This document shows positions 4,780 through 40,688 of a stretch of DNA of 64,000 bases, piece after piece. The stretch comes from Pempheris klunzingeri (Eukaryota; Chordata; Actinopteri; Acropomatiformes; Pempheridae). The stretch is from the NCBI RefSeq assembly GCF_042242105.1, contig NC_092013.1, positions 5,368,730 to 5,432,729 of the forward strand, in the 5' to 3' direction. The position numbers and the translations under genes were made by a program. Every line of letters begins with the position of its first letter. The stretch's first letter is position 1. The notes beneath the pieces are model-generated. The model saw nothing but the letters and a program-made list of their open reading frames with translations. It did not search any database and was not told where the DNA came from.

Positions 4780-7700
4780 TAATCTTTGTAGATCATTGTA
4801 GACCCAAACGTAATTATAACTCCTTTGAAAGTCTTACTCTTAGTTTTTCACACCCAACCTGGAAAACACTAAAACCAGTGTTGGTTGTCACAGTATACCG
4901 CCCTCCTGGCCCGTACTCTGAATTCTTAACTAAGTTTTCAGAGTTTTTATCAGATTTAGTCCTTAGTGTGGACAAAGTGATTATAATAGGTGATTGTAAT
5001 ATTCATGTGGACAATGATAATGATGGTCTCAGCACTGCTTTTGTCTCACTATTGGACTCAATTGGCTTCTCCCAGAGTGTAAACTAACCAACTCACTGTT
5101 TTAACCACACTCGTGACCTTGTTTTGGCTTATGGTGTTGAAATTGAACAGTTAACAGTCTTTCCACACAACTCTATTCTATCGGACCATTACCTGATAGC
5201 ATTTGATTTCTTGTTACTAGACTATGCACTATATGACAGAAAGGTCCTCACTAGATGCTTATCTGATAGTGGTGTTGCCAAATTTAAGGAAGTGATTCCT
5301 TTAGCATTTCAGCCTGTGTGTCCCTGTGCTGTGGATGACCCCCATGTTAATCTTAGCCCCTCCCAAATTGATTACCTGGTCGATAGTGCTGCAGGTTCAC
5401 TGCGAATGACACTAGACTCTATCGCCCCTCTAAAAAAGAAGATAATTAAACAAAAGAGACAAGCTCCCTGGTATAACTCCCAGACACGCTAGCTTAAGCA
5501 ATATTCACGCAAACTTGAAAGGATATGGCGTGCCACCAAATTGGAAAACTCCCGTTTAATCTGGCAAGATAGTCTGAAAACCTATCGAAAGGCCCTCTGT
5601 AATGCCAGAGCCACCTACTACTCCTCATTAATAGAAGAAAATAAAAGCAACCCTAGATTTCTGTTCAGCACAATAGCCAGGCTGGCAAAAAGCCAGAACT
5701 CTATTGATCCTTGTGTTCCTTTAGAGCTCAGTAGCAACAACTTCATGAGCTGATTTAATGATAAAATTCTGACTATTAGAGACAAAATTCCTCACCTCCT
5801 GCCCTCAACAGGGTCTGATCCAACTTTAAACCTAAGAACCATATGAACAGCTGTTAGACTGGATGTGTATATGGACTGTTTTTCTCCAATTGATTTTTCT
5901 GAATTGGCTTCAATATTCTCCTCATCCATGTCTGCTAGACCCCATTCCTACTGGGCTACTTAAGGAGGTCCTGCCCCTAATTAACACGTCCTTACTAGAT
6001 ATGATCAATCAGTCTCTACTAACAGGCTATGTACCACAGTCCTTTACAATAGCAGTCATTAAACCTCTCCTGAAAAAGCCTACTCTTGATTCAGGTGTGT
6101 TAGCTAACTATAGACCTATATCCAACCTTCCCTTTTTCTCCAGGATCCTGGAGAAAGTCGTAGCTAATCAGCTGTGTAATTTTCTAAATTCTAATAGTCT
6201 ATTTGAAGATTTTCAGTCAGGTTTTAGAGCGAACCACAGCACAGAGACAGCACTGGTGAAGGTTACAAACGACCTCCTTATGGCATCAGACAGAGGACTT
6301 CTCTCTGTCCTGGTCTTGTTAGACCTGAGTGCTGCTTTCGACACCATCGACCATCACATCCTGTTACAGAGACTGGAACAGTTCATTGGTATAAAAGGAA
6401 CTGCATTAAGCTGGTTTAAGTCCTATTTATTAGATCGATTTCAGTTTGTACATATTAATAACGAATCCTCTGTCCACACTAAAGTTAGACATGGAGTTCC
6501 ACAAGGCTCAGTGCTTGGACCAATACTTTTTATCTTATATATGCTTCCTCTTGGTAATATTATCAGGAAGCACTCCATTAATTTCCACTGTTATGCAGAT
6601 GATACACAATTATATTTATCAATAAAGCCAGATGAACCCAATCAGTTGGTTAAACTTCAAATCTGCCTTAAGGACATAAAGTCCTGGATGAGCAGCAACT
6701 TTCTGCTTCTAAATTCAGATAAAACTTAAGTTATTTTGCTTGGCCCCAGACACCTCAGAGACACCCTTTCTACCAACATAACTGCTCTGGATGGCATTGC
6801 TCTGGCCTCCAGCTCCACTGTGAGGAATCTGGGAGTCTTATTTGATCAAGATTTGTCCTTTAACTCCCACATTAAACAGCTTTCTAGAACTGCCTTTTTC
6901 CATCTACGTAATATTGCCAAAATCAGGCCCATCATATCCACTGATGATGCAGAAAAATTAGTGCATGCATTTGTCACTTCTAGGTTGGACTATTGTAACT
7001 CATTATCATCAGGCTGCCCCAATAAGTCGTTAAAGACTCTCCAGCTGGTCCAGAACGCTGCTGCTCGTGTTCTGACAAGAACTAAAAGAAGAGACCACAT
7101 TTCTCCTGTACTGGCTTCTCTTCATTGGCTCTTCAAAATCCTTCTCCTCACCTACAAGGTTCTTAAGGGTCAGTCTCCATCATATCTTAAAGAACTCATA
7201 GTACCGTAATACCCCACTAGAGCACTGTGCTCCCAGACTGCAGGCCTACTGGTGGTTCCAGGCTCCTCTCCTGTGGAATCTCCTTCCAGTCTGGGTTCGG
7301 GGGGCAGACACCCTCTCTACAAGAGTAGACTAAAAACCTTCCTTTTTGATAAGGCATATAGTTAAGGGCTGGATCAGGCCTTGGACCAGCCCCTAGTTAT
7401 GCTGCTATAGGCTCAGACTGCCGGGGGACTCCTATGATGCACTGGGCTCCTCTATTCTCTATCCTCCTCTTCCTCTCCATCTTCATGCCTCATGTCCCTT
7501 TAATGTCTGTTACTAACTTGGTATCTTCCCTGGAGCCTTTCTGTGCTTTTCTCATCTCTCAGCTTCCTGTGGATCCTGGTCCTGGTCCTGCTGATGTGGT
7601 TCTCCGCTTCATGAATCACTGCTGCGGATCGTCGGCCACTCGTCACATTTTTCAATAATACTATACTGCTAATCTTTTAGTCACACTCCTATTGTTAGTG

Positions 7701-11302: not shown

Positions 11303-14300
11303 CAAATATTCATATCATATTTTATACAGTAAATCATTGAGATGAATTAATAAAAACCATTTACCTCGATGTGATGCACCAGCTCAAGTGTGAGTTTCTC
11401 AGCCAGTTTAGGAACAGTAGCGAGGCCTTCATCATAGAGAGAGCTACAGCAAGAATAAAAAGCTAGTGAGCCCATGCTGCACAACCTCTCACACACTTTG
11501 ACACTCACAGTTTGTATAATTGCCAAAAAGGAATTCACTTACTGGAAATTGACATGGTCACTGAAGAAGGCTTTCTCTCTTTCTGTTGCTTCAGTGAGCG
11601 TCACCTTCTCTGTGATCTCCTTCTGACCCCGACACTTGACGATCATGTAGCCCTTCTTCAGGTGGATGACCTCATTATGGACAATGTCCACCACCGTCTC
11701 TTCTGTGCCTTTGTCCACCAGATCAGGCTTGGTCAAGATACCTGAGAGAGAGAAAGACAGACAGTGAGCTATCTGAAGGTCGATACCTGAGCCGATTGGT
11801 CCTTTTCTGAAATCAGCTGTTTACCCAGAGTCCTCTCTCCTTCAGGATCCACCTCCTGGGCCATCTTCAAAGCCTCTGTGGTTGCTATGTCCACGTTGCA
11901 TGGAACAACCACCAAGCTGATGGTTTCTTGTTTATTGATGAACTTCTGGATCAGCCTCTTTATCTGAAAATAGGAATTTATATTGGACATGAAGTTTTAA
12001 GTTGTTCAACTATCGGCAGAGCTTAAGTGTCTTTCTGTTCTCATAAGATGTGAACTAAAAGTCTATAGCTTTGCTCTGTGAGATTCAGCATTGATGCTTT
12101 TCCTTGGAATAACTTTCTACCAGAGAAACTGTCCCTGTGTAGTGTAGAATAAACACACCTGGTCTCCAATGTTCTCTGGTTGTCCCTTTACAGCCACCCT
12201 GGCGATGCCGGGCAGGTCAATGAGCGTCAGATCTGGAACATCAGGAGAGGCGATCTCCAGACTGATGAGGTCATCACAGATCCCCACCCCGACCCCGGCC
12301 ATTTCGTCCTGAGCTGGAGAGACAGAGGACGTAATGTAAAATGATTACAAAGAAACAAAAGTCTGTTGCTCCTTCATTACTTGGCTTTTGACAATGATAT
12401 TTAAGAAGACTCTGTACTAGACCTTCTCTTATCTTTTTCTCCACATCTGCAGGATCATCTATGTCTTCCTCACAGGACTGGTAGCTTATCTTTCCGTACC
12501 ACTCCTCTCCTTCTTTCTTTCTCTTCATCTTCAGTTCGAGAGGGCATCTTGTCACAATGCCTGAAATGAATGTACAGTAAATAACAAGAGAGAGGGACAA
12601 TTCAAAGTGAATTCCAGTGTGCTTGGTGAAAAGTGGTGAAAGTTTTGTTACTTTCACCACTACTTTGTCATCAGTTATTGTGCAGATCAACTGATCACTT
12701 TCATACATTTCATATTCACTGAATGAGCGGTGGTGTAACCCGGGGCACGTCAGCGTCAAAGAACAGCGCTGCACCAAGGATGTTGAACTGCTGGCAGTCG
12801 GCCTGCGGCCATACTGCCTGCCGAGGGAGTTTTCACATGTCATTGCGTTGACTGTGTTCATCCCCCCCTCGGCCAACGCGGCTGCCGCCTACGAGATCAT
12901 CCACAGTGTTGTGTCCCAGCTGCAGACATCCCACCCCCAGTCCCTCATCCTCATATCAGGAGACTTTAATCATGCATCGCTGTCTACCACTCTCCCCAAA
13001 TTCCGCCAGTATGTGGACTGCTTCACAAGAGACAATAAAACCCTGGACTTACTGTATGCAAACACCAAGGAGGCATACAGTTCATCACCCCTCCCCCCGC
13101 TGGGCCGCTCAGATCACAACCTGGTGAGACTGCAGCCCATTTACATACCTTTGGTGAAGAAACAACCCCCCACCAAAAGGTATGTGAAGAAGTGGTCTAA
13201 GGAGGCCACTGAGGCGCTGCAGGACTGTTTTCACACCACTGACTGGGATGTGCTGTGCAGCCCCCACGGAGAGGACATCGACACTCTGACACACTGCATC
13301 ACAGACTATATCAATTTCTGTGTGGAGAACACCGTACCCACCAGGAAAGTACGGTGCTTCTCCAATAACAAACCCTGGGTGACCTCAGAACTGAAGGCCC
13401 TGCTGAAGGAGAAGAAGAGGGTCTTCAGATCTGGGGACAAGGAGGAGCTGAGGAGGGTGCAGAAGGAGCTGAAGAAGAAGATCTGGGAGTGCAAGGCCAG
13501 CTACAGGACCAAGATGGAGAGCCACTTGCAGACTAACAATGTAAGGGCAGTCTGGAGAGGACTGAAGACCACCAACCGTTTCCGGTTCCAAAGACAACGC
13601 ACCCCAGGGAGCCCCACCACTTCAGACCTGTGGCCCTCACTTCTCACCTGATGAAGACCATGGAGAGGATCATCCTCAAAAACCTCCGCTCCCTGGTGAG
13701 CCCACATCTGGATCCACTGCAGTTTGCCTACCAACCGAGCACTGGAGAGGATGATGCAGTCATCTACCTGCTTCACAGATCCCTGACTCACCTGGAGAAC
13801 ACCGGCAGCACTGTGAGGGTCATGTTCTTTGACTTCTCCAGTGCATTCAACACCATCCAGCCGTCACTACTCAGGGTGAAGCTGGAAAGAGCGGGAGTGG
13901 ACTGTCACCTGGCTGCATGGACAACAGACTACCTCACCAACAGACCGCAGTACGTGAGGCTCCAGGACTGTGTGTCTGACATGGTGGTCTGCAGCACAGG
14001 GACCCCACAGGGGACAGTACTCTCCCCCTTCCTCTTCACCCTGTACACCTCGGACTTCAGTTACAACTCTGGGAACTGTCACCTCCAGAAATTCTCCGAC
14101 GACACAGCCATTGTAGGGTCTGTGTCGTCGGAGAGGGGACGAACAGGAGTACCGGGAAGTCGTCACCAACTTCGTTGACTGGTGTGAGCTAAACCATCTT
14201 CAGCTCAACACCAGCAAGACAAAGGAGATGGTGATTGACTTCCGCAGGAAGACATCCCAGACTGCACCGGTGAACATCCAGGGACTGGACATTGAGAGGG

Positions 14301-15859: not shown

Positions 15860-15889
15860 AGTTTCGTTTCCTTGAGTTTCGTTTCTTTT
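15860..15889 (-). promoter_or_regulatory. Tandem ISRE-like elements of Mx B
   Basis: Two copies of AGTTTCGTTTC separated by a few bases give GAAACGAAACT on the gene strand, repeated, at about 157-186 bp upstream of the ATG. This is the cleanest interferon-response block in the cluster and is shared in part with copy D. Confidence 0.7.
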
Positions 15890-20100: not shown

Positions 20101-20667
20101 CCCAATAAAAATGAACACATATTTCAATCAGCCTACTTTCTGCCTAACTACACCTGCCAACTGCCCCAAAGTGCATCTTCTCACAACACAAGACCAAGTG
20201 CCATCCAGTACCATTATATTTGAGAGAAGAACTCAGCAGCACTACATGTAAGAGGAAAAATAAGCATTTTTAAGAAGTTGTCCTTATGGAAACTGCTGAC
20301 AGCTTGTTTTGGGGAACAAACACACCTGGTCTCCAATGTTCTCTGGTTGTCCCTTTACAGCCACCCTGGCGATGCCGGGCAGGTCAATGAGCATCAGATC
20401 TGGAACATCAGGAGAGGCGATCTCCAGACTGATGAGGTCATCACTGATCCCCACCCCGACCCCGGCCATTTCGTCCTGAGCTGGAGAGACAGAGGACGTA
20501 ATGTAAAATGATTACAAAGAAACAAAAGTCTGTTGCTCCTTCATTACTTGGCTTTTGACAGTGACATTTAAGAAGACTCTGTACTAGACCTTCTCTTATC
20601 TTTTTCTCCACATCTGCAGGATCATCTATGTCTTCCTCACAGGACTGGTAGCTTATCTTTCCGTACC

Positions 20668-20675
20668 ACTCTCCT
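20668..20675 (-). other. 2-bp insertion breaking Mx C
   Basis: Here the sequence reads GTACCACTCTCCTCTCC, where A, B and D read GTACCACTCCTCTCC. The additional CT shifts the frame, and the first stop in the new frame is TAA at 20653-20655. Confidence 0.9.
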
Positions 20676-21238
20676 CTCCTTCTTTCTTTCTCTTCATCTT
20701 CAGTTTGAGAGGGCATCTTGTCACAATGCCTGAAATGAATGTACAGTAAATAACAAGAGAGAGGGACAATTCAAAGTGAATTCCAGTGTGCTTGGTGAAA
20801 AGTGGTGAAAGTTTTGTTACTGTCATCAGTTATTGTGCAGATCAACTGATCAATTTCATACATTTCACATTCACTGGGAGCACTACATTGAATTTTGTGA
20901 GGAAAAGAATTTGTAGGATTTTTTTTTTTGCCTTGTGGAATTGATTAATTGCTGTAGCCTACAGGTTGGAACAATGATCTAATTTACACCAGAGCATGTG
21001 CTGTTAAAACCAGAAGTACAGGTTTGATTATGAAGTCGTGCTCATCAAAAATTACACAGGCAGATGGATTAAGTAAAGCTTGCAACACTGTGGAGCAACA
21101 GGATACACCCGTTTCAAAGATATAGGATTGGAGGAGACCAAAACAGAGCTAAAAGGGAAAAAAAATACAGGACTTTTCATCAAATAGCCAGAAATGCAAC
21201 TGTAAATGAACGCTAATGTTGATCCATGTCTGCTGTAG

Positions 21239-25189: not shown

Positions 25190-25195
25190 TTTATT
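25190..25195 (-). terminator. Candidate poly(A) signal of Mx D
   Basis: AATAAA on the minus strand, about 475 nt past the stop codon at 25668-25670. No other AATAAA on that strand stands out in between. Confidence 0.45.
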
Positions 25196-25667
25196 TGAGA
25201 GGTTATAAACTAAATCTCAATCACACGCTCTCAGGAACACTTCACAGCTTTCATTATAAATGCTATTTGCTACAGCAATGCTTTTGAAGAATGACTTATG
25301 AAAATGTATGAGGCTGAATATATAAAATATGTGGCTTCACACAGACACTCACAGTTTATATCAACCAAAACCAAAACTCTACTACTACTCTACGAAAACA
25401 ACAAAAACAGAAGGAACAATAACAAACAGCTCAGTTTTTTCTTTTCTGTTTTGGACCTTATACATTGGATATGTTGCTTGTCTTCCAGGAAATACGAACA
25501 CAGAATAGAAAACCCTAAAATGTCATCAGATGTGGTTAGAAAATCTGACAATACAACAAAATGACTTATAATAAAATAAATGGCTGATTAAGTTAGTATT
25601 TACCAGCTGACGAGGGCCGGCTGGTTAGTACTAACTTTCACACAGGAGGGTGAGGTGTCACCTGGGC

Positions 25668-28600
25668 CTAGCGTACTCTTTTCTCTCTTCTGCCTTTAGA
25701 AGAGTTGACGTACATCATTTCAGGTTGCAGGATGGGGGTCAGTGGCTGGAAGTTCGCCACATGGAGGCTGCCACCCTCGGCTCCAGCCTCTCGTATCACC
25801 TGTTTTGTGCTGAAGTTGTATATGTTAAGACTAAAGTTAGTCACCAGAGTGCGTGCCGTTGACAGGCGCTCGTGGCGCATGTGAAGGAAGAGTCTCTCGT
25901 TTTTTACGCGAGAGTCTTCATGAAGCAGGAGCTCGGCTTTCTCCTTGTCCTGAAGCATCTGCAGCATCTCCCTGTGCAGCTGGGCGGCAGACTCCTGCAA
26001 CAGCTGGTAGCGGATCACCAGGGGGATCTGGTCAGCCAGACGCTGCCCGGCAATCTGGGGTTTGTAGAGGAGAGTAAGTGTGTAACTAAAAGCTACTTTC
26101 TGTGTCTGTATCTGTATTCTGTATCAGTATAGTAGATTTTACTGATAATTGTCTACTCAGCTTCAATTCCTGCCTTACTTTAAATGCACTTTAACCCCTT
26201 GAAGGTCCTCAGAAATAATCACGTTAAAGATCCTTACACACATAAATGTGTATGCATAAAAACAAGCCATAAAAATGTTAAAAATCTTTCTTTTTTTTAC
26301 ATTTTTTTTTAAATAGTTTTTTAGACCAGCATCAGCCCTAATCATACATATCAAATTTTAATTAGTTTTTTAAAAAATTAACCCTTAAATTGCCATGTTT
26401 TTGTCATGATGCGCATCATTTTATGGTCTAAAATACACAAAAAATACATGAAAAAAATTGAGAACTCTGAAAAATTCACCATCTTGCAAAATTATAAGCA
26501 ATATGCATGAAAAACTGATAAAATATGCTAAAAATAAAAATCATAACACACTAGAAAGTGCTGAAGACCCTCAAAGGGTTAAAATAACGACTGTCTCGGG
26601 ACATTTGTTGTTACTTTCCAATGGTCTAAATCAGCCAAATAGTTACTTCTATATCTTAGTGGCTGCCTTATCATAACATATTACTGTATTTGACGGCAAA
26701 AACATGAGCAAACGTTGAATGTCTGAATGTTATTCACTGCAACTTTAGATTAGCTAACCAGCTGGTAATGCTTCCCAGCAGAAAAGAGGGTTAACCTGTT
26801 TGATTTCAATAGAAAAAGAATGTAGTCACAAACAAATCTCTTTTCATGCTTAACACAGCAGGCAACCGGAAACAAATTACAGTAGATCTTGAAAACTATA
26901 GAACTGAAATTCTTTCCCACTGTCTCTACTGTCTCTAAAATGTGTGTGCTGAATTATAAAATGGACATTGTGTATATTACGCTTACTTGGTAGTAGGATT
27001 TAAGGTGTTTGATCATCTCTTTCAGGGTGGACCCGGTGTCATTATTGCTCACAGTGGTGGCGACTTTCTGTACTGGTACAGCAGCACCAAAGCTTAACCC
27101 AGACGGCTGTTCCACCTCCCTCTTCCGCTTCCCTAACTTCTTGCTGTACGTGGTGTCTTGAGTGTAAACAATCAGCTCCATCTTAAACTGAGTCCTCAGC
27201 GTGGACTCTGCAGTACTCTCCCTCTCCTTGCTGATGGCTTCGATCTTCATCTAAAGGACATAAATATTTGTCAGTAAATATTCAGCAATGTTTCCTATCC
27301 AGCACCAATGGATGATGGAAGTGATACCGTAGCTGCTCGGATGAGGTTAGGAAATCCAACGAGGCTTTTCTGCGCCACCTTCAGCAACTCTCTCTTCACA
27401 AGTTCTATAAAAGAAAATACAAATCAGACATGCAACGGGAGAAATGCATATTCAGCGTAGCACCGCGATGAGACATGCCTGTTATTTCCTTGAGTTTCAT
27501 GATTGCGGGCTCCTCCAGCAGTTTGATCTGCTCCTTGACCATGTCCTCAAAGGTCTTGTAGTTGATGAAGCCCGGCAGTTCTCTCCCTCGGTACTTTCGT
27601 TCATACTGAGCCACCTCTTTCTCAATATTCCAGTTGACTGTAATAGTGATGAATTTGAGAAAGAAAAAGTAGACATTAAGTAGGTTGATGCTGATGAGTG
27701 GTTATTACTGCAGCCTGGGGCAAAACTTAAACTTAAGTAGATAAATGTAGATGTATTTTACTGCTTTTTTACATCATGGCTAGGGGACTACAGATGAAAA
27801 CTAGCCTTCTGGCTAATTCTGGCTTTTTTAACCATGTGTAATCATGTGTTTTATGAAATTGTATTGTCCCCTTTCAAATAAACTAAACTGAAACTGAAAT
27901 AAAAGATCATTACTTAATATTTGACAGTGTAAAATAGTTTGCATTTTTCATAGCAAGAGAAAAATCTGTCTTACTCAGCCGTTAACTTTACATGTTTTTG
28001 CAGTAAAGAAGCCACAGAAAAGATCAAGATATCAAAAATAAAGTCGTTGATGCACTTACATGATACTCCAGAGCGCTCTATGATATCTTGCCATGCAGCA
28101 AACTCTTTTCTGAGTATGGAAAAGAGATTGAGCCTTGCTCCAAATTTGAGATCCTCCCCTGTGGTGAGGCTGATGGCATCCTTTGTAAAGGCAGTCACTC
28201 TCTAAAATATAACAGGTTCGGATAAAAAAAAAGAAGGGAAATTAGTCTTTTCAGAAGCTCAAATCACTCAAATCACAGTTGCAGGGCTCTGAAAGCATCA
28301 AAAAGTCTCACGTCAATGAGGAAACCGAGTCTGTCGGTTGCGTCAGATGGGGGTTCAGTGCCATATCTGTCCAGCTCTACCAGAGTCTTTGTTAGTTTCT
28401 TCTCTATCTGCTCTTCCAGTCGAGGCAGAGATTTCTACAAATCACACATGGGTCAACCTTTGACTCCTGACGTGGGTAAAGTAATCTGAAGTGAACTGTT
28501 GATGTGAAGCACTGAGAAATACTCACCTTGATGTGATGCACCAGCTCAAGGGTGAGATTTTCTGCCAGTTTAGGAACAGTAGCACGGCCTTCATCATAGA

Positions 28601-30534
28601 GAGAGCTACAGCAATAAAAAGTTAGTGAGTATGTGTGACACAATCTGTCAAACTGCAAATCTTTGTTTACATCATTACCAAAAGGAATGAACTCACCGGA
28701 AATGCACATGGTCACTGAAGAAGGCTTTCTCTCTTTCTGTTGCTTCAGTGAGCGTCACCTTCTCTGTGATCTCCTTCTGACCCCGACACTTGACGATCAT
28801 GTAGCCCTTCTTCAGGTGGATGACCTCATTATGGACAATGTCCACCACCGTGTCTTCTGTGCCTTTGTCCACCAGATCAGGCTTGGTCAAGATACCTGAG
28901 AGAGAGAAAGACAAACAGACAGTGAGCTATCTGAAGGTCGATACCTGAGCCGATTGGTCCTTTTCTAAAATCAGCTGTTTACCCAGAGTCCTCTCTCCTT
29001 CAGGATCCACCTCCTGGGCCATCTTCAAAGCCTCGGTGGTTGCTATGTCCACGTTGCATGGAACAACCACCAAGCTGATGGTTTCTTGTTTTTTGATGAA
29101 CTTCTGGATCAGCCTCTTTATCTGAAAATAGGAATTTATATTGGACATGAAGTTTTAAGTTGTTCAACTATCGGCAGAGCTTAAGTGTCTTTCCGTTCTC
29201 ATAAGATGTGAACTAAAAGTCTTTAGCTTTTTTAGACAGAGGAATAACTTTGACCTCAGCACTGATGCTTTTCCTTGGAATAACTGTCCCTGTGTAGTGT
29301 AGAATAAACACACCTGGTCTCCAATGTTCTCTGGTTGTCCCTTTACAGCCACCCTGGCGATGCCGGGCAGGTCAATGAGCGTCAGATCTGGAACATCAGG
29401 AGAGGCGATCTCCAGACTGATGAGGTCTTCACTGATCCCCACCCCATCCCCGGCCAATATAATTTGAGCTGGAGAGAGAGGACGTACGATTTAAAACAAA
29501 TTTACAAAGAAGTGCTCACAAGGGTTCAGACTCATCAGGGTTTGTCACAGTGCTCATTAAAGCCAAACTAGATGGCGCTGTTTCATCATGTTGATGTCAA
29601 ACATTTGGCGTGATTTATATCCGGCCATGTTGTGTAAGACGCACAAAACAGTGAGGTGAGAAGGAAGTTTGTATTTTTTAAAGTAATTTCTCTTGTCGCT
29701 GTTATTTTTTTGTAATAAAGTCTTTGTTTAATTAATGTTTAGTTTAATGTTCATTTCATTCGGCATTTCATAATCAAACAAATCATCATGATTCACATTC
29801 ATTGTTTAAATTGTTAGACAAATACACTTCATTTTAAAACTGATTTAGTGTCTCTTCACGAATAATCTACTCGAATAACACAAATGAACTATTTTGGACT
29901 CAAAGGTGACAAGCTTGCACCCCTCACAGCAAACAAAACTAACTTTAATGCCCTCCAATTACTGGATCTTGACAGCGCCGCTGAAGTGTACCCTACCTTC
30001 TTTAATCTTTGTCTCCACATCCGCAGGATGACCGATGTCTTCCTCGCACCCTTTGTAGCTTATCTTTCCGTACCACTCCTCTCCTTCCTTCTGTCTCTTC
30101 ATCTTCAGTTCGAGAGGACATCTCGTCACAATGCCTGAATCAATGCAGAGTGACAAATTAGACAGGGAGGAATTTAAAATAAGCTAAATATATCTGCAGG
30201 CTTAAATGTTTGACAAGGCTCATCAGATGGAATAACTCATCTGATTCATGACTTTTCATTTATAAGTCTAATCTCTTTAATTCTATACTGTATGTGAACA
30301 TGTAACTGCTAATTATATGGTCAATATCATAGGTTCATTATTGGGTCTTTGAATAAATATTTATCAGGCTGCTGTGACTCCAGGCAGCAGGTTATGATGT
30401 TTTTCATTTTTATTTTATTTTATTTTATTCCTTCGTAACAAAGGCGTTTTAGAACATTTGTGATATTTTCAAATGAACTATGAACCCATTGTTGGTTTGT
30501 GTTATTTTATGCTGCAGAAGTCAGTCCATAACTT

Positions 30535-30586
<52 letters not shown>

Positions 30587-31206
30587 CCCTTAATCCTAAA
30601 AGGAAAAAAGAGAGACGAGCAGTGAAACGCAAGCTTGATGTTTTACGCCTTTAGTTGATTTAAAGTGATAACTGAATAGACAACCTTGATGTATGTTGAT
30701 TGATGTATTTTTTAGCTAAAACACACAAAAATGGTGGTTCTTCAGTGGTTCTTTGGGGGGGTCGAGGTCCTATATCTCACTACTGCCATACCAGAAGCCC
30801 CTATATGGTTATTTAAAGGTTCTCTACTGGTTCTTCAAGTTTGTTTAATTTAGTTGCAGAAAGATTTTCAGTTGCCACATTTGCTGTGTTGCACCTTTAA
30901 TGCTGCAACAGGTACTATAAAGGTGGTTCCCTCGTGATTATGAGCCAAAGATATGTTTTTTTTTTTGTGTTTGCTCATTGTGTATTTTAAAAGCACAGAG
31001 TGTTTTGTGAATGACCCACCGCTTCCTCTGGGCAGAGCCACCCCTGACAGCGCCTCCAGCACGGAGCTCTTCCCCGAGCTTTGGTCTCCAATCACGGCGA
31101 TAGCAGGCAGCGCCAAGTCCTTCTCCACACCGAGAGAGCGAAGAGAGTCGATGAGGTCGATGCAGGGACGCACCTTCTCCTCATACTGCTGGTTCAGACT
31201 GTTCAT
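25668..31206 (-). CDS. mx: Divergent Mx GTPase, copy D (12 coding exons, 682 aa, C-terminal extension)
   Basis: Exons: 31020-31206, 29997-30134, 29314-29468, 28983-29121, 28697-28895, 28527-28605, 28312-28434, 28060-28201, 27479-27637, 27328-27404, 26987-27250, 25668-26054. Exons 1-10 have the same lengths as in A, and the frame is open over 2049 nt (682 aa). P-loop [21 protein letters not shown] and TKPD are intact. The L4 region differs fully from A-C: no glutamate run, but [11 protein letters not shown] and a Ser/Thr/Val-rich loop, with a KRKR patch at 507-510. The GED is followed by a 54-residue tail (629-682) ending GRREKRVR. The exon 9 donor is GC instead of GT (27478-27477). Exon 1 and exons 3-5 closely match A-C, whereas exon 2 and exons 6-12 are divergent. 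Probably a functional paralog with different target or location. Confidence 0.92.
30537..30578. repeat. (TC)n microsatellite in Mx D intron 1
   Basis: 42 bp of pure CT dinucleotide. Confidence 0.95.
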
Positions 31207-31400: not shown

Positions 31401-31426
31401 AGTTTCGTTTCCTTGAGTTTCTTTTG
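31401..31426 (-). promoter_or_regulatory. ISRE-like elements of Mx D
   Basis: AGTTTCGTTTCC followed by GAGTTTCTTTT, matching copy B except that a GTTTC unit is missing in the second element. It lies about 195-220 bp upstream of the ATG, behind the same GCAGGGACGGAGCTTG leader as B. Confidence 0.65.

Positions 31427-34592: not shown

Positions 34593-40688
<6,096 letters not shown>

Follow-up and report, generated by a model that had tools for sequence, protein, structure and literature searches.

A mosaic Mx paralog of Pempheris klunzingeri with a 54-codon C-terminal extension

Results

The Mx cluster and the gene model of Mx D

The window, by which we mean the whole 64-kb stretch of contig NC_092013.1 of Pempheris klunzingeri that was analysed, numbered from its first letter, contains four Mx genes, A, B, C and D, all on the minus strand. 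Mx A (about 4503-399) and Mx B (15703-8994) have complete frames of 623 and 626 amino acids, Mx C (21877-17760) stops after LVDF, and Mx D (31206..25668) was rebuilt from its splice sites as a 12-exon gene whose spliced frame of 682 codons is free of internal stops. Exon 2 of Mx C (20590-20729, minus strand) has two bases more than in A, B and D, which shift the frame, and its exon 1 has 18 extra bases; Mx C may be a pseudogene or carry a sequence error. The window also holds two retrotransposon-like frames on the plus strand. One (5836-6726, between A and B) matches a reverse transcriptase (PF00078), and the other (12695-13648, in intron 1 of B) has a weak endonuclease match that falls below the cut-off. 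Beyond the cluster, a minus-strand exon (35632-35976) gave a MARVEL-domain match just below the Pfam cut-off and a neighbouring frame (34596-34919) gave no Pfam match; we take the two to belong to a synaptophysin-type gene.

The whole Mx D protein matches Dynamin_N (E=1.6e-49), Dynamin_M (E=4.7e-80) and the GED (E=2.5e-19, residues 540-627) in Pfam. The same search found no PH domain, two other GTPase families stayed below the cut-off, and no proline-rich region was seen when the protein was judged by eye. The product has the tripartite GTP-binding motif, including TKPD, as well as the signature LPRGSGIVTR (the definitions of both motifs, the second as LPRG(S/K)GIVTR, follow the available part of PMC3522624). 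When exon 12 was compared with the PDB, seven of the eight matches were entries named Mx1 or Mx2, and the eighth, a Tektin with an E-value of 1.2, was set aside as chance. Over exons 6-12, the comparison of Mx D with A gives dN and dS of about 0.27 and 0.65 (a ratio of ~0.42), and this value below 1 suggests constraint. On these features Mx D is probably a functional, if divergent, Mx paralog.

Upstream of the gene there is a 14-mer, AAGGAAACGAAACT, at 31401..31414 on the minus strand, 208 nt before the ATG. The identical 14-mer stands at 15860-15873 (minus strand), 170 nt before the ATG of Mx B, and neither A nor C has a match that comes within less than one point of it, the top score in each being one lower; the 14-mer is ISRE-like. 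A candidate poly(A) signal, AATAAA, lies at 25190..25195 (minus strand), 472 nt after the stop of Mx D, and a 48-base inverted repeat with a 75% self-match (25590-25637) starts about 30 bases past the stop, in the presumed 3' UTR. The donor of intron 9 in Mx D is GC (CAG|GCATGT; 27473-27478, minus strand), the sole non-GT donor among the 44 introns modelled in the four genes.

Mosaic structure of Mx D

The kinship of Mx D to its neighbours varies from exon to exon, with exons 1 and 3-5 close to A and B and exons 6-12 mostly not. Exon 1 (31020..31206, with the ATG at 31206), where the GTPase-domain half starts, is 99.5% identical to A and B. Exon 2 (29997..30134) is 88% identical to A, exon 3 (29314..29468) 98% over 143 of its 155 nt, exon 4 (28983..29121) 99%, and exon 5 (28697..28895), in which Dynamin_M begins, 98%. 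From there on, exons 6-11 match A at 78-91% where they can be aligned: 91% in exon 6 (28527..28605), 85% over 120 nt in exon 7 (28312..28434), 79% over 101 of 142 nt in exon 8 (28060..28201), 85% over 144 nt in exon 9 (27479..27637, followed by the GC donor), 80% over 40 of 77 nt in exon 10 (27328..27404) and 78% over 138 of 264 nt in exon 11 (26987..27250), which includes loop L4. All of these exons are on the minus strand. The synonymous divergence between D and A follows the same division, at 0.085 for exons 1-5 versus 0.65 for exons 6-12.

The introns can be read in the same way. Introns 3 and 4 of Mx D are 96-99% identical to those of A and B over aligned columns, against 74% in the shuffled control, and introns 5-7 are 68-81% identical to those of A, where the shuffled control is again 74%. 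The corresponding figure for intron 3 of Mx C is only 81%. Introns 2, 8 and 11 and intron 6 of B were left out of this comparison because their lengths are very unequal and their identities are inflated by gaps. Further upstream, an identity of 89-91% to B extends over one stretch of 352 bases and over another of 562 bases that takes in exon 1.

A second change of kinship falls inside exon 12 (25668..26054, minus strand), which encodes the end of the GED, the C-terminal extension and the TAG stop (25670-25668). The identity to A is 89% up to about position 25940 and 51% after it. The best of the 57 split points scanned has a p-value of about 2e-10, before any correction for their number; with the boundary placed slightly further on, dS is 0.29 ahead of it and 1.79 behind it. 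The stretch of ~36 codons that ends the GED region (25833..25940, minus strand) is strongly diverged, with 51% nucleotide identity to A in codon register. The original prediction was that a changed C-terminus beside the GED could alter oligomerisation, and the change turns out to be broader than was then described, taking in this part of the GED region as well as the added residues.

Judged by these identities, Mx D is a mosaic in which exons 1 and 3-5 and introns 3-4 are A/B-like and most of the rest is old. The simplest account is repeated gene conversion over exon 1 with its upstream sequence and over exons 3-5 with introns 3-4, perhaps also over the start of exon 12. On this account the 3' end stayed old and divergent, as did L4 and much of the stalk. 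The tail would then be part of an old segment that conversion has not touched. Another way to arrive at such a pattern is for the GED end and the tail of Mx D to have been recombined together from a lost or distant Mx lineage, so that the tail would be an inherited domain instead of a read-through. The sharpness of the homology break in exon 12 and the near-saturated dS behind it agree with this. However, among the best candidates scored in the assembly there was no copy of exon 12 beyond the four in this cluster and no more than one tail, and conversion of the upstream part by A or B produces the same break without any donor. We regard a foreign 3' end as very unlikely and prefer gene conversion. 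The tail itself tells us no more than the mosaic structure around it does.

Position of the extension and state of the stop codon

The extension of Mx D runs from 25832 to 25671 on the minus strand (25671..25832) and has 54 codons, residues 629-682, with no counterpart in A, B or C. It begins with SLNIYNF, ends with GRREKRVR and is closed by the TAG at 25670..25668. The sequence bears out the original prediction of an extension of this length and ending. Of the coordinates first given for it, 25668..25830, the end at 25668 is correct when the stop is counted, and the exact start of the tail is 25832. The other three genes stop just after the GED, as had been predicted from VEF and VDF: the stop follows directly after LVEF in A and B and after LVDF in C, with GAG TTT TAG in the first two and GAC TTC TAA in the third. 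At the same place Mx D reads AAC TTT AGT CTT, so the TAG is one base out of frame exactly as had been claimed.

The closeness of this TAG raises the question of whether a single base in the T run is wrong, either as a sequence or assembly error or as a private allele, in which case the real Mx D would end at F628. The run is shortened precisely at the paralogous stop, with TTTTAG in A and B and TTTAG in D, only a single copy of the Mx D locus was found in the assembly, and the 2-nt frameshift in exon 2 of Mx C implies that real decay or errors do occur in this cluster. The other 628 codons of Mx D are nevertheless frame-perfect, and the codon content of the tail itself is coding-like (see below). 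Additionally, the flank of Mx D at this place matches A and B at only about 50%, so that the stop it once had may have been something other than TTTTAG, and C has TTCTAA there. We think that an error or private allele is unlikely, but a one-base loss at the former stop, be it real or a product of the assembly, is still a serious competitor.

The tail could also be lost at the RNA level, if mature transcripts spliced it out or swapped it for a further 3' exon. Downstream of the stop there are an acceptor-like site (25389) and three donor-like sites (25661, 25352 and 25245). In exon 12, before or within the tail, no donor scores above 4; two of the real donors of Mx D score as little as 3.6 and 4.0 in the same model, so that the tail might contain a weak one. 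The modelled A, B and C genes all terminate in exon 12, which also speaks against such splicing, and we give it hardly any credence.

Relatives of the tail

The tail has no relatives that we could find. Its local alignment scores against the 3' flanks of A, B and C were 21-22, within the range of shuffles (of the flank of A, only about 400 nt fall inside the window), and the best other match in the window by tblastn had an E-value of 0.17. A blastn search of the window with exon 12 and its 3' flank found the last exons of the three other Mx genes, up to the break in the middle of exon 12; what remained was one self-match, the inverted repeat at 25590-25637 (E 0.004), and matches of E 0.046 or worse. 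No second copy of the tail appeared in the 646 Mb assembly, by DNA or by protein, among the best candidates scored. A mobile element was considered and rejected on these searches, in which the tail found only itself. There was no match in Pfam to the tail, alone or within the whole of Mx D, none in phage records by tblastn, and none was confirmed among the 77 pattern matches in prokaryote contigs and 16 in viral contigs. A full-text literature search (titles and abstract openings among the matches listed, with subscription papers mostly outside its scope) returned no long C-terminal extension in a fish Mx.

Against the PDB, the tail alone matched 23 TAL-effector chains with E-values of 0.0004-0.003, but no stretch of them passed alone and we consider this an artefact of summed repeats; two further matches, at E 1 and 1.7, were taken as chance. 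The seven Mx matches to exon 12 all end by query residue 77, which is the first residue of the tail and the end of the GED, and the longest chain matched, of 662 amino acids, aligns to its residue 660. These solved Mx proteins, which are mammalian, lack the tail, and with them as the outgroup it is probably derived in Mx D, a gain.

The basic C-terminal end

The last nine residues of the protein, KGRREKRVR (residues 674-682; 25671..25697, minus strand), are dense in basic residues. When the tail was shuffled, 0.34% of the products had at least five basic residues in the last ten, a criterion that was picked with the sequence already in view. The pattern K-[KR]-x-[KR] is matched in 4.3% of the shuffles, and it is a loose one, since KRQK at residue 75 of Mx D matches it too. 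No bipartite nuclear localisation signal, defined as two basic residues, a spacer of 10-12 and at least three basic residues of five, occurs in the tail, and the sole match in Mx D starts at residue 299. The mean hydropathy of the first 42 residues of the tail does not mark disorder.

Possible nuclear targeting had been proposed from this end together with KRKR in L4. The motif is indeed at residues 507-510, in exon 11, and the dense basic end stands as a cue. The KRKR part had to be dropped as a mark of Mx D, because C has NKRKRGEEE at the same place (A and B have ERKREEE). The terminal basic cluster is a candidate import signal, but the nuclear reading is weak and we would put it at less than an even chance. 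One precedent, mouse Mx1, has a C-terminal import signal in its last 19 residues that the available part of PMC7939456 calls weak and unable by itself to move other proteins such as MxA; according to the same text, mouse Mx1 without the signal is cytoplasmic and loses its anti-influenza activity. Chicken Mx forced into the nucleus showed no gain in activity against influenza (PMC2922328, available in part). With a mouse signal that is weak on other proteins and a chicken Mx that gains nothing, a basic tip need not alter function.

Open frame and coding signal in the tail

That 54 codons stay open after a stop is unremarkable. Of 8770 noncoding windows of 162 nt, 610 were free of stops, and two of the nine post-stop frames of A, B and C stay open longer than the tail of Mx D (68 codons behind A and 69 behind C). 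The codon content is therefore the more telling property, and we scored it in three ways, in all of which the windows overlap, so that the counts are not independent.

In the first test, whose test regions overlapped its training regions, the tail scored 0.20 per codon, compared with a mean of -0.42 (sd 0.26) for noncoding stop-free windows and 0.30 (sd 0.16) for the body of Mx D. Its score was reached by 1% of the 610 stop-free windows and by 1% of tail shuffles. In the second test, which was corrected for composition and in which one 4-kb stretch was counted twice, frame 0 of the tail scored 0.07, as opposed to about -0.30 for the two remaining frames; the value of frame 0 was reached by 0.95% of 12702 windows, by 7.6% of the 816 stop-free ones and by 0.07% of tail shuffles. 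In the third test the regions used for training and for testing were kept apart, and no stretch was counted twice. There the codon score of the tail was 0.21, that of the noncoding stop-free windows was -0.40 (sd 0.21), and none of the 391 stop-free windows (of 6910) reached the tail with either score. This last test is a little more favourable to the tail than the first two, but it does not shift our odds, since the outcome varies with the choice of regions. Taken together, the codon content suggests moderate coding support, the strength of which is set by the control regions, as the 7.6% of the 816 stop-free windows that match the tail makes plain. The GC-rich stretch continues for about 60 nt past the stop of Mx D, after which the GC content is 25-35% in six of seven bins.

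These results bear on one of the two main rivals of a functional tail (the other is the one-base error discussed above), a recent and functionless stop loss in which Mx D simply reads into its 3' UTR and gains a neutral, perhaps degraded, tail with an accidental basic end. The absence of relatives in the searches described above (window, best candidates scored in the assembly, Pfam, phage, prokaryote and viral contigs) would be expected of such a tail, frames just as long stand open behind A and C, and the basic motifs are loose. Yet the codon content of the tail is closer to coding sequence than to most noncoding windows, and the rarity of so dense a basic end in shuffles, post hoc as that test is, does not sit easily with accident. 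We consider a functionless tail possible but doubtful.

Discussion

Our preferred explanation, to which we give about an even chance, is that Mx D is a functional old paralog whose 5' half has been kept by gene conversion and which has a derived C-terminal extension of 54 residues, arisen by stop loss and possibly shifting the site of action of the protein. Conversion would keep exon 1 and the block made up of exons 3-5 and introns 3-4, which between them contain most of the GTPase-domain coding sequence, nearly identical to the neighbouring genes. The stalk, the L4 loop and the 3' end would meanwhile be free to diverge on their own, and the divergence itself can be seen in the sequence. At the unconverted 3' end the usual stop would then have been lost and former 3' sequence, probably UTR, would have joined the frame.

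Solved Mx structures have at their C-terminal end helix three of the bundle signalling element, which lies beside the GTPase domain. The tail, if it is translated, would hang from this end as a linker with a basic tip, presumably exposed. An oligomer of Mx D would in this way present a multivalent basic patch, which could bind weakly to importin, RNA or an acidic membrane, and such a patch may shift where Mx D acts. Nuclear import would be one option for such a shift and not the default.

A more far-reaching possibility, which we find decidedly unlikely, is that the D lineage represents an old percomorph class of Mx in which a conserved, basic-tipped tail sends the protein to the nucleus or to nucleic acid, with conversion refreshing the GTPase half while the effector end is protected. 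If this were true, the cluster would combine a common motor with two different types of address tag.

Mx D is a variant within a well-known family and, as it stands, a modest finding. What makes the gene useful is that the antiviral range of Mx can depend on cellular location, as the available part of PMC7939456 describes for mouse Mx1. A single paralog with a gain at its C-terminus, in a cluster whose GTPase exons have been equalised by conversion, could therefore serve as a natural test of the role of the C-terminal end in localisation and virus range.

Comparison with known systems

Teleosts have one to ten Mx proteins per species, by the part of PMC13030082 that is available, and Mx D is like them in LPRGSGIVTR, TKPD, Dynamin_N, Dynamin_M and the GED; here the genes form a tandem cluster with 12 exons each. 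At 682 amino acids Mx D is longer than CiMx1 (635) and CiMx3 (630) of grass carp, than the rohu protein (631 in the accessible portion of its source) and than its neighbours A and B, the extra length being the C-terminal tail. Two Mx proteins of the giant salamander, of 671 and 703 amino acids (PMC9405346, partial text), can be likened to Mx D by total length only.

The basic residues at the extreme C-terminus recall mouse Mx1, with the difference that the mouse signal is made up of its last 19 residues (in the available text of PMC7939456), whereas Mx D has them at the tip of an added tail, so that the likeness is one of sequence only. Predicted nuclear localisation signals have also been described, in the parts of PMC3522624 and PMC6408538 that are available, for several fish Mx proteins, namely grass carp CiMx1 and CiMx3, Atlantic halibut, rainbow trout Mx2 and channel catfish. 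They share basic motifs with Mx D, but the grass carp motif is bipartite and the tail of Mx D has no such motif.

The nearest parallel to the mosaic structure is in mammals, where gene conversion between MxA and MxB covers the BSE-GTPase exons and reaches into introns (PMC4687636, as far as its text is available). In both cases GTPase-side exons have been homogenised between paralogs, to judge from the sequences here, and other segments have separate histories. The fish cluster differs from the mammalian pair in its four tandem genes, and also in that exon 12 opens with another short stretch that looks homogenised.
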